Assembly (NCBI RefSeq): GCF_007859315.1
Contig: NZ_VOHA01000003.1
Coordinates: 372,001-436,000, forward strand
From: Reyranella sp. CPCC 100927
GTDB lineage: Bacteria; Pseudomonadota; Alphaproteobacteria; Reyranellales; Reyranellaceae
Direction of reading: 5' to 3'
Length of the DNA stretch: 64,000 nt
Shown: one piece after another, positions 19,215-22,628 of the stretch
How positions within the stretch are numbered: the first letter of the stretch is position 1
Layout of the letters: each line of letters opens with the position of its first letter
Notes under the pieces: model-generated
Told to the model about the DNA's origin: nothing
The model's database searches: none
The model's input: only the letters and a program-made list of their open reading frames with translations
Program-made: the position numbers and the translations under genes

Positions 19215-19299
19215 GTCATCCCGAGCGTAGCGAGGGATCTCCTGCGGAGGACGCACAGTGCGCCATTCGCGGGAGATCCCTCGCTGCGCTCGGGATGAC
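19215..19299. repeat. inverted-repeat element, CCCGAGCGTAGCGAGGGATC family
   Basis: An 85-bp hairpin with left arm GTCATCCCGAGCGTAGCGAG and right arm CTCGCTGCGCTCGGGATGAC, with GGGATCTC/GAGATCCC next to them. It belongs to the same group as the core of 9608-9763 and 32344-32561 but lacks their flanks. It sits downstream of the convergent exported-protein gene and may act as its transcription end. Confidence 0.75.
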
Positions 19300-19333
19300 A
19301 TCGGCAACCAGCATTCCAGCTAACGGCTGAGCG

Positions 19334-19873
19334 TCAGGACGCGGCCGCCGTCCAGGGCTTGGGGATCAGCACCCAACGGCCGTTGACATGGACCAGACCG
19401 TCGAACGCCATGCCGGTCGTCGAACCGGGTTGGACGAACTTGAAGCGTGCGATGGGCAGCCCGCGCTTCATGTCGCCCACGACCTTCCTGTAGCCGCCGG
19501 GGAACTCCGCGAGCGCCGGCTTGCCGTCGATCAGATCGTCCGTGCGCACGACGAGGAGCAGCAACTCCGTCTGTTCCGGTTTACCCGCCAGCACCGTACC
19601 TGCGTCCCAGATCTTGCGGTGTTCCTGCTCGAGCCGGCCGGCGAGCGGATCCTGGTAGACGGCGCGGTAGTCGGCGGCCGCGGGCCGCAGCGTGCGCATC
19701 ACGGCCGCCTTGTCGGTCTTCGCATTCGGCAGGAACTGCATCAGCAGCGCGCGGGCGCCGGCCTCGGTACCGGGAAAGGTTTCGGCGGTGGCCGGCCTGA
19801 CGAAACCCGCGCCGAGGAGGATGGCGCCGGTGGCGATGTGCAGTGTTGATCGACGTGACAACAGGTTTGTCAT
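19334..19873 (-). CDS. exported protein of unknown function
   Basis: A 179-residue protein that I do not recognise. The N-terminus (LSRRSTLHIATGAILLGAG, then FVRPATAETFPG) is a signal peptide with a possible twin-arginine start and an ATA-E cleavage site, so the mature part of about 150 residues is periplasmic. It contains LMQFLPNAKTDKAAVMRTLRP, a run of five leucines/valines (TELLLLVV) and ends with a HVNGRWVLIPKPW strand, which resembles small lipid- or ligand-binding folds. It lies 114 bases downstream of another exported protein gene on the same strand, and the two may be functionally linked. Confidence 0.75.
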   Translation of the reverse strand: MTNLLSRRSTLHIATGAILLGAGFVRPATAETFPGTEAGARALLMQFLPNAKTDKAAVMRTLRPAAADYRAVYQDPLAGRLEQEHRKIWDAGTVLAGKPEQTELLLLVVRTDDLIDGKPALAEFPGGYRKVVGDMKRGLPIARFKFVQPGSTTGMAFDGLVHVNGRWVLIPKPWTAAAS

Positions 19874-19987: not shown

Positions 19988-20605
19988 CTACTCGACGTTG
20001 ATCATCCACACGCAAGCACGGCCGGCCGCGTTCGGCCGCCCGCCTGGATAAACATGTACGTTGATCTCGCCCCGCGAAAACATCTTGCCGCGACGGCTGC
20101 CGTGCGAGCCGAAGATGGTGCTCTCCTTGAATCCCATATCCCTGAAAGCGGCCGCATGGGCGTCGTAGTCGAAGGTGCAGACCGGGGTCATGTCCGTCGT
20201 GTCGAGATCGGCCGTTGACCCCGGAACGAATGACAGATCGAGCCGGGCACGCGTCTTCTCCGGTGGATAGCGATAGATCTGCAGATGATAGAGCCATGGT
20301 GGGATCAGCTTTCCGGAGGCTGCGGCACCGGCGGGATCGCTGCTGCGCTGGGTGTGCTTCCTGCCGCTGCTGTCGATCCACTCGGATATCGATTCGACCG
20401 GAGAGATGAGCTTCACACCGGTAAACTTTTCGACCCGCTCCGGGGTGATGTCCTGATTGGTCTTCAGGCTCTCGATCAGTTTCAGGACGCGGCGGCTCGC
20501 ATCTTCCGCTGACGAGGGGGGCCCGGATTGCGCCGCCACCGGCGTGCCGAGGACCAATGCAACACATGTCGCCAGCATCGCCGGCCAACGTCCTGGGCTT
20601 CGCAT
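19988..20605 (-). CDS. exported protein of unknown function
   Basis: A 205-residue protein with a signal peptide (MRSPGRWPAMLATCVALVLG, cleavage after VAAQ). The mature part has a helical segment SSAEDASRRVLKLIESLK, then a KFTGVKL segment and a C-terminal beta-rich region with RGEINVHVYPG and ACVWMINVE. No known family is evident by eye. The start at 20605 was chosen over a frame open 42 bases further up because AAGGA precedes it and the signal peptide then starts correctly. A good promoter (TTGACA, 17 bases, CATATT) lies 24 bases upstream and mirrors the promoter of the divergent DUF2157 gene. Confidence 0.75.
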   Translation of the reverse strand: MRSPGRWPAMLATCVALVLGTPVAAQSGPPSSAEDASRRVLKLIESLKTNQDITPERVEKFTGVKLISPVESISEWIDSSGRKHTQRSSDPAGAAASGKLIPPWLYHLQIYRYPPEKTRARLDLSFVPGSTADLDTTDMTPVCTFDYDAHAAAFRDMGFKESTIFGSHGSRRGKMFSRGEINVHVYPGGRPNAAGRACVWMINVE

Positions 20606-20628: not shown

Positions 20629-20657
20629 AATATGAGGGAACAGTCACTTATTGTCAA
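20629..20657 (-). promoter_or_regulatory. promoter of the exported-protein gene
   Basis: Read on the minus strand: TTGACA, 17 bases, CATATT. The first 14 bases, TTGACAATAAGTGA, are identical to those of the promoter facing the other way at 20855. The -10 box ends 23 bases before the start codon, giving a short leader that carries the AAGGA site. Confidence 0.65.
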
Positions 20658-20705
20658 TGCTGCCACACCTGTCACTGCGATTGAACCGCGAGAAACCCGA
20701 TCACT

Positions 20706-20791
20706 CCTGGGAGCGCGGGCGTCCCGCCCGCTCATGTCTTGCGAAAGCAAAGCTTTCGCCTTGATGCGGGCGGGACGCCCGCGCTCCCAGG
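20706..20791. repeat. hairpin repeat with 26-bp perfect arms
   Basis: Left arm 20706-20731 starts CCTGGGAGCGCGGGCG and right arm 20766-20791 is its exact complement over 26 bases; the inner loop also contains GCGAAAGC/GCTTTCGC. It lies between two divergent promoters, so it is not a simple terminator of either gene. No coding content. Confidence 0.8.
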
Positions 20792-20854
20792 GCTCGCTTT
20801 GCTCGCAATGACAGCGAAATCGAATGCGACTGTGAGTCACTGAGACGAGCGGCC

Positions 20855-20883
20855 TTGACAATAAGTGAGTATATACTCATATA
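20855..20883 (+). promoter_or_regulatory. promoter of the DUF2157 gene, with a palindrome between the boxes
   Basis: TTGACA (20855-20860), 17 bases, CATATA (20878-20883); TATAAG at 20880 is an alternative -10. The perfect 14-bp palindrome TGAGTATATACTCA (20866-20879) fills the spacer and is a likely operator. The -10 ends only 6 bases before the ATG at 20890, so the transcript would start at or within the start codon. Confidence 0.6.
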
Positions 20884-20889
20884 AGCCCG

Positions 20890-22062
20890 ATGTTTGCCAA
20901 TCGTTATCTGTCGCGCTGGCAAGGCGCCGGGCTGATCGACGCGGCCGGTGCGCAGCGCATTGTCGACTGGGAGCGGGCGCAGGCGCGCCCGGTCTGGCTC
21001 TGGGCGCTGGCCGGTCTGGGCGCTTTCGCCATTGGGATGGGCGTGCTGGCCGTGGTCGCGGCGAACTGGGAACGGATCCCCGGCTGGCTGAAGATCACCG
21101 TCAACCTGGCGCTGAATGTCGGCGCGGCCGCCGCGCTCTTCGTGTCCTGGCAGCGCGGGTGGGAAAAGACCCGGGAAATCCTGGCGATCGTCCTGTCGGG
21201 CCTGGTGCTGAGCGGCATTGCGCTGATCAGCCAAGTCTACCAGCTCGACGGTCCAGCCTGGCAGGCGCTGCTGCTGTGGATGGCGATCTGCACACCCTTC
21301 ATTGCCCTGGTCACGCGATCGCGCGTGCTGGGCGTTGCCTGGGCCGCGGCTGCGACGATCACCTACCTGAGCTCCATCGAAGCCCTGGATCGCCTGCTCG
21401 GCCGGCTGCTGCACGGCGACGCCGTCATCGTGATGACCTGGGTCCCAGCCCTTCTTCTGGTGGTGGTCGGCATCGTGCGGGGCTGGTTCGCAACGACGCG
21501 CGGCCAGGCCGACGCGATCGTCGCTTGCGCCGTGCTGGCGCTGTTGTTCGCCGCCAGCGTGCCGCAGGTCATCGTGTTCCGGCCACGTGAAGAGGTCGGG
21601 ACCATCGCGGCGATCATGGCGAGCCTGCTGGTGATGGCGCTGCTCCTGCGCGAACGGCGCCGCGGCGATGATGCTGCCACGCCGCTGATGGCGATCGTGC
21701 TGGCTGGGTTGGGTGTCTGGCTGGCCTCCATGCTGATCTGGAAATTGGCCGGCGCCAACGACACCACGCACTCGACCTGGAGTCTCACGGACAGGCTGCC
21801 GGCGCTGGGCGCGGCTCTTGTCTTCATCGTCTTCTGGGGCGTGGTGAGTTGGCTCGCCTTGCGCGCGGGACGGCGCACGCTGTTCGTGCTGGCGTTTGCC
21901 GTGATCACGATCCGCGTCTTCATCATCTACTGGGAGGCGTTCGGCGGGCTGCTGAACACCGGCCTCGGGCTGATCGGCGGCGGGCTGTTGTGCCTCGCGT
22001 TCGCGGCACTGGGCTGGCACATCGCGCGGCGCGCCGGCCGGCCGGTGGAGGCTGCGATATGA
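20890..22062 (+). CDS. DUF2157 domain-containing membrane protein
   Basis: A 390-residue integral membrane protein. Residues 1-35 are a soluble N-terminal segment (GLIDAAGAQRIVDWERAQ) typical of DUF2157, followed by about ten hydrophobic segments starting with LWALAGLGAFAIGMGVLAVVA. The N-terminal domain motif NWERIPGWLKI between the first two segments is also diagnostic. Function is unknown. No ribosome-binding site precedes the ATG and the promoter is almost on top of it, which suggests leaderless translation. Its stop overlaps the start of the GDYXXLXY gene, its usual partner. Confidence 0.88.
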   Translation: MFANRYLSRWQGAGLIDAAGAQRIVDWERAQARPVWLWALAGLGAFAIGMGVLAVVAANWERIPGWLKITVNLALNVGAAAALFVSWQRGWEKTREILAIVLSGLVLSGIALISQVYQLDGPAWQALLLWMAICTPFIALVTRSRVLGVAWAAAATITYLSSIEALDRLLGRLLHGDAVIVMTWVPALLLVVVGIVRGWFATTRGQADAIVACAVLALLFAASVPQVIVFRPREEVGTIAAIMASLLVMALLLRERRRGDDAATPLMAIVLAGLGVWLASMLIWKLAGANDTTHSTWSLTDRLPALGAALVFIVFWGVVSWLALRAGRRTLFVLAFAVITIRVFIIYWEAFGGLLNTGLGLIGGGLLCLAFAALGWHIARRAGRPVEAAI

Positions 22063-22628
22063 AGCGCATGATGATGGTCCTGGTGATTGCGGCGCTGGCG
22101 TTGCCGATCGCGGTGCTGGCGGCCATGGTCGGCGATGCCGAACATCGCATTGCCAATGCCCAGGTGGTGCGCGTCGCCATCCGTGGCTACGATCCGCGCG
22201 ACATGCTGCGCGGCCACTACCTGGTCTACCGCTTTGACTGGAACGCGGAGATCACGTTCGTCGGTCGCACCGAGCGGCTGTGCGTGGTGACCGCGCCAGC
22301 CGATGCGCCGGCCCGCGTGCGGCCGCTGGCAGCAGACGGGACCGAGGCCTCAACGGCAGGCTGTGCCCTCGTGCTGAAGGGCTGGGGCGAGGTGCTGCCC
22401 GAAGCGCGTCGCATCCAGCTGGACGAGCGTCGGCTGCAGTTTACACCGGCCGGTGTCGCGAGCGGGCGGCTCTATGTGCCGGAGCGGCACGCGCGGGAAC
22501 TCGAACGTCTGCTGGCGTCCGGCAAGGTGCAGCTGACCATCGACCTCGCCGTCATGGAAACCGGTCGCGCCAGCGTCAAGGCCTGGCATATCGACGGCAA
22601 GACGGTCGACGCCTACTTCGCCCAATAG
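22059..22628 (+). CDS. GDYXXLXY-domain exported/membrane protein
   Basis: A 189-residue protein with an N-terminal hydrophobic anchor (MMMVLVIAALALPIAVLAAM). The defining motif occurs as RGHYLVYRF after DPRDMLRG near residue 50. The mature part would be periplasmic. Proteins of this family are nearly always paired with DUF2157 membrane proteins, as here, where ATGA joins the two genes. The role is unknown; a shared membrane complex is a reasonable guess. A strong hairpin follows 2 bases after the stop. Confidence 0.85.
   Translation: MKRMMMVLVIAALALPIAVLAAMVGDAEHRIANAQVVRVAIRGYDPRDMLRGHYLVYRFDWNAEITFVGRTERLCVVTAPADAPARVRPLAADGTEASTAGCALVLKGWGEVLPEARRIQLDERRLQFTPAGVASGRLYVPERHARELERLLASGKVQLTIDLAVMETGRASVKAWHIDGKTVDAYFAQ

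Follow-up and report, generated by a model that had tools for sequence, protein, structure and literature searches.

Two outward-facing promoter modules of one type around a putative IS4-related relic in a Reyranella genome

The window, i.e. the whole stretch of 64,000 nucleotides from Reyranella sp. CPCC 100927 that was analysed here, contains a 14-mer, TTGACAATAAGTGA, in two exact copies that are inverted around a hairpin: one at 20644-20657 on the minus strand and one at 20855-20868 on the plus strand. Each copy opens a promoter-like module that leads outwards into a gene. This raises the question of what the pair represents: the terminal repeats of a mobile element with outward promoters, which on insertion could have switched on both neighbours, or two promoters that owe nothing to the DNA between them. 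From the sequence comparisons below, the latter is likely: a divergent region in which two promoters of one type flank a bystander relic that would have supplied neither. The features of the region are as follows (window coordinates):

19334-19873, minus strand: next gene, same direction as the orphan gene; its counterpart in V. terrae lies directly beside the DUF2157 gene
19988-20605, minus strand: orphan open reading frame (ORF) of 205 amino acids behind the left promoter, with a match in its own genome only
20629-20657, minus strand: putative left promoter, with -35 TTGACA (20652-20657), 17-nucleotide spacer and -10 CATATT (20629-20634); operator-like core with one half altered
20659-20832, no strand: putative decayed MITE-like element, IS4-family relative; edges approximate, target duplication not seen in this copy
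20706-20731, no strand: left arm of the hairpin (element core), 26 nucleotides, perfect
20766-20791, no strand: right arm of the hairpin (element core), 26 nucleotides, perfect
20855-20883, plus strand: right promoter, with -35 TTGACA (20855-20860), 17-nucleotide spacer and -10 CATATA (20878-20883); ATG 6 nucleotides on
20866-20879, no strand: perfect operator-like palindrome TGAGTATATACTCA inside the right promoter; the motif family occurs in the genus and beyond
20890-22062, plus strand: DUF2157 membrane-protein gene behind the right promoter (Pfam PF09925, E 1.6e-27)
22059-22628, plus strand: GDYXXLXY gene, following the DUF2157 gene in the same orientation (Pfam PF14345, E 3.7e-14)

A first-pass annotation of this DNA had described the exact inverted 14-mers, a 17-base spacer followed by CATAT(A/T) in both directions, genes directly behind both modules and a hairpin with perfect 26-bp arms. 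All of this holds: the modules read TTGACA-N17-CATATT (minus strand) and TTGACA-N17-CATATA (plus strand), the start codons are at 20605 and 20890, and the hairpin arms are 100% complementary. The pair of 14-mers is also above chance. With up to two mismatches allowed, the window has two sites, the mean of shuffled windows is 0.05 and none of 100 shuffles had two; in the intergenic flanks (53 and 57 nucleotides), the longest exact inverted repeat is 14 nucleotides, a length reached in none of 5000 dinucleotide shuffles (maximum 12). The likeness of left and right continues beyond the 14-mers, over 34 nucleotides at 79%. In the whole 9.08-Mb genome, the exact 14-mer occurs at the two window sites only, with one further site at a single mismatch. 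A scan with the sigma-70 consensus passed the left site (10 of 12 matches) but did not list the right one, because CATATA has only three of the six consensus bases and lacks the final T.

That close relatives conserve the right module, read here as the promoter of the paired DUF2157 and GDYXXLXY genes, is well supported. The DUF2157 protein has matches in seven of 61 genomes, its own included, and only two of these exceed 50% identity, both from the same genus (74% and 67%). Four orthologues with at least 67% protein identity were compared: the window gene and those of Vineibacter terrae CC-CFT640 (74%), strain SYSU D60007 (67%) and a contig labelled as Anaerolineae MAG (69%); the first two named relatives were taken to be the two genus loci above and entered the comparison once. 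All four have TTGAC-N4-AGTGAGT...CTCA upstream of the gene, and in all four the ATG follows 5-6 nucleotides past the -10 element; a leaderless DUF2157 mRNA that starts at or beside the ATG is therefore predicted. The four more distant homologues (L015-L018, 43-49% identity) have no right-promoter motif within 400 bp upstream. The contig labelled as Anaerolineae MAG (JAHCIE010000467.1, 3187 bp) has a DUF2157-GDYXXLXY-sigma factor block with 78% DNA identity to the window over 2717 columns, and is probably mis-binned DNA from a Vineibacter relative.

The interior is not confined to this locus. When the 255-bp region was compared with its own genome, 80 matches were found, corresponding to at least 40 places (at least 39 elsewhere), as the palindromic core makes every place match on both strands; the count is a lower bound from the 40 of 311 first-look candidates that were scored. 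Seven other places (L002-L008) match the greater part of the interior with 87-97% identity, the match in L007 ending at the hairpin, and 20 more loci that were read with their flanks have mainly the ~88-bp core and in a few cases part of the outer element. The 14-mer is absent from all 27. A full-length copy (L003) has matches in 15 of the 61 genomes, with up to 13 candidates scored per genome; outside its own genome, most of these cover just the arms or the core of the hairpin, with a best E of 1.1e-9. The intergenic DNA has no match among plasmids. The hairpin was also considered as a known RNA family, but the six Rfam matches between 19000 and 23000 (E up to 1) were all below gathering scores and belong to eukaryotic or viral families. 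A role as terminator of the flanking genes was rejected as well, as it lies upstream of both.

Near-full copies start and finish with GCTGTCGNATTCACACA, and these ends lie inside the 14-mers. With up to two mismatches, GCTGTCGNATTCACACA has 24 sites in the genome (reversed control: none), and several pairs bound copies of the element; in the window copy, both terminal repeats are altered or shortened. Nine elements with ends of this type were examined for 9-bp target duplications, with shifts of up to four bases allowed: 9/9 positions agree in L002, L008 and L093 and 8/9 in L005, L006 and L100 (null P 0.006-0.028), L004 reaches 7/9, L007 5/9, and L003 8/9 only if its edges are moved four bases into the repeat, which was not counted. 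No target duplication was found for the window copy (best 6/9, null P 0.42). Two of the nine, L093 (G000 C31:7537-7880, 344 bp) and L100 (C56:403824-404574, 751 bp), have like ends and other cargo with no copy of the hairpin; ends of the GCTGTCGNATTCACACA type appear to enclose interiors that vary and are in part palindromic. By eye, members of the family and an S. meliloti IS4 element (flanks of L002, L003, L006, L008 and L147) lie between C-rich and G-rich arms that resemble terminator stems, as if terminators were preferred.

The same ends point to the IS4 family. With up to one mismatch, GCTGTCGNATTCACACA occurs in eight of the 61 genomes, its own included; single matches in far relatives are no evidence, because the reversed control gave six matches in two genomes. 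In one genome (G036), five of the 15 end sites lie within 141 nucleotides of a contig start, a pattern expected of a multicopy element, and at the one site that was read the end adjoins 39 codons that look like the C-terminal end of an IS4-family transposase (E 6.8e-4 to NCBIfam NF033590, a match far below the cut-off; no Pfam match). Among plasmids, this tail matches 16 records, of which seven are annotated as IS4 family transposase at the match; the sequences of two were read. An IS4 gene of B. septentrionale (Bradyrhizobium) has the ends GCTATCGCATTCACACA and TCTATCAGATTCACACA, with one and three mismatches to the repeat of the Reyranella genome; the annotated start of this transposase gene is outside the left end, and its DDE_Tnp_1 match has an E of 4.5e-6. 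An IS4 gene of S. meliloti (Sinorhizobium) has the ends GCTACTATATTCACACA and GCTACTAGATTCACACA, with four mismatches each. The IS4 link comes from the below-cut-off 39-residue tail and from like ends at one to four mismatches; searches for transposase remnants at five loci of the own genome that have the terminal repeat gave nothing or E values of 0.08-0.71. As the interior is repeated elsewhere with other ends that are like IS4 ends, we consider its identification as an insert inside the 14-mers, a decayed, non-autonomous, MITE-like relative of an IS4-family insertion sequence, to be well supported.

Operator-like sequences are found beyond this promoter too: the palindrome TGAGTATATACTCA is part of a motif that also stands upstream of other genes of the family. 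The pattern TTGAC-N{0,6}-GTGAGTNNNNNCTCA is matched 23 times, in 16 of the 61 genomes, and never in the reversed control; with a looser pattern, 14 matches cover all four genomes of the genus (control: one). Outside the genus, 11 of the 12 matches are upstream of an ORF that starts with MIRS (for two, the DNA itself was read); the one MIRS ORF tested is a Pfam acyltransferase, as is the ORF that adjoins a one-mismatch operator site in the own genome (L027). L113-L123, from 11 genomes of a related genus, have an operator-like motif upstream of an acyltransferase-type ORF. Within the genus, doubled operator-like sites are found upstream of small ORFs of ~119-138 amino acids (L022, L023, L132), and the one at L132 has no Pfam match. 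In TetR-type regulation, a palindrome is placed between the -35 and -10 elements of a sigma-70-type promoter; from this layout, the regulator could be TetR-like. None of 96 TetR_N matches adjoins an operator site of the own genome, the nearest being ~3.6 kb away (150 of 292 candidates scored).

In structure and spacing, the left module is like the right one, and with the right one being kept in close relatives, the first-pass view of like promoter modules facing apart is borne out. Eighteen positions are invariant in the DUF2157 promoters of the three relatives; the left module keeps 16 of these, as does the right one, and the next best of the 79 TTGAC sites of the window keeps 12. Over 29 positions, left and right are identical at 23, and the right module is identical to those of the three relatives at 20-24. 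The gap of the left module, TTGAC-N5-GTGA, is that of the DUF2157 promoters, while the 20 other operator-pattern matches have a gap of one or two, within a pattern that allowed 0-6. One half of the left operator core is changed, so that control there would be weaker or lost. The core is no palindrome; it agrees with the site C56:50388 at 17 of 20 positions and with the right promoter at 14 of 20. The changed half and this closer agreement speak against a simple copy. Compared with the own genome, the left 63 bp find nothing apart from themselves and the right arm (31 nucleotides, 81%, E 0.5). The protein encoded behind the left module has no match outside its own genome among 61 and among 385 genomes (sets that partly overlap), none in Pfam, NCBIfam or plasmids, and in PDB only matches with E 0.37 or weaker. 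The third-position GC of its ORF is 0.76, compared with 0.84-0.90 in five neighbours. In V. terrae, an ORF of 338 amino acids is found between the counterpart of 19334-19873 and purA. The region is variable, with a different left neighbour and different upstream DNA in relatives, and for this reason no clean empty site could be shown.

The inverted 14-mers around a repeated interior would fit a mobile element of 225 bp whose promoters point outwards, and the first-pass annotation had offered this as an alternative. It also names where such an element should be seen again, in other 14-mer pairs with the same interior; the genome has no such pair, the 14-mer is missing from every one of the 27 other copies read out of at least 39 other places, near-full copies end differently, and relatives without an element at this place do have the right module. 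We therefore regard this reading as extremely unlikely. A related possibility is that the left -35 is a decayed element end (TGTC of the terminal repeat), so that the insertion made the left promoter. By eye, TGTC can be aligned with the family end if a few bases were inserted, and AGTCACT at 20643-20649 and 20835-20841 could be a decayed target duplication; the 14-nucleotide match to the right promoter would then be a coincidence of a kind absent from all 5000 shuffles, and the best duplication of the window copy does not stand out from its null. This origin is quite improbable.

It is harder to decide how the left promoter came to resemble the right one. It may have arisen independently or have come with the orphan gene, its likeness to the right promoter being due to the same repressor and sigma factor acting on both. 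The operator-like motif is indeed found upstream of other genes, and the left core is nearer to C56:50388 than to the right promoter. Yet the left module has the DUF2157-specific spacing, in contrast to the shorter gap of the 20 other regulon-like sites, and the free positions that separate TTGACA from AGTGA read ATA on the left as on the right. An independent origin is thus possible, if on the unlikely side. More probably, the left module goes back to the right promoter, copied in inverted form, a claim we hold at somewhat better than even. The fuller scenario, in which the promoter was copied inverted together with its operator, perhaps aided by the palindromic relic, and the orphan gene thereby gained a regulated promoter ready for use and joined an old membrane-gene regulon, is more doubtful.

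Taking the divergent region with a bystander relic as the working model, RNA polymerase would probably start at or beside the ATG of DUF2157, on a leaderless mRNA, and a putative dimeric repressor would bind the palindrome between the right -35 and -10 elements and block RNA polymerase. The left module would be another promoter of this type, though an imperfect one, that may serve the orphan gene and probably arose by inverted duplication of the right promoter. The hairpin-bearing relic between them would be the source of neither promoter.

All parts of this locus are of known kinds. MITEs are non-autonomous derivatives of insertion sequences, and an IS4-type kind is already known. The family described here is, like these, short and non-coding, with the terminal repeats of a transposase-bearing relative and 9-bp duplications in several copies; the window copy differs in having neither intact ends nor a duplication, and most of the genome's copies read with flanks consist of the hairpin core only. 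REP/BIME-type elements are dispersed palindromes and have in common with this family a dispersed, intergenic palindromic core, but some copies of the family form part of larger elements that have terminal repeats and are flanked by target duplications. Repressor-controlled sigma-70-type promoters likewise have TTGACA, a 17-nucleotide spacer and a palindromic site in the spacer; the right module differs in its predicted leaderless start. DUF2157 membrane proteins are placed in a LiaF/PSP envelope-stress context in PMC11237479; the window gene has the domain in common with these and is paired with a GDYXXLXY gene. Within the portions available of the literature on Vineibacter, DUF2157/GDYXXLXY, outward promoters, MITEs, IS4 and leaderless or TetR-type systems, nothing on this locus was found.

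A dispersed element with an inverted repeat on either side can be mistaken for a transposon with outward promoters; here, a conserved promoter and its look-alike would produce this picture. If the left module is a copy, the locus would be a small, testable case of a promoter duplication that gives an orphan gene regulated expression. Two annotations are of use beyond it: one is the operator-like motif seen in Vineibacter and related genera, the other a MITE-like family with ends common to an IS4 element. The window has another dispersed-looking hairpin at 19217-19303, downstream of purA, with its arms around GTCATCCCGAGCGTAGCGAGGGATC.
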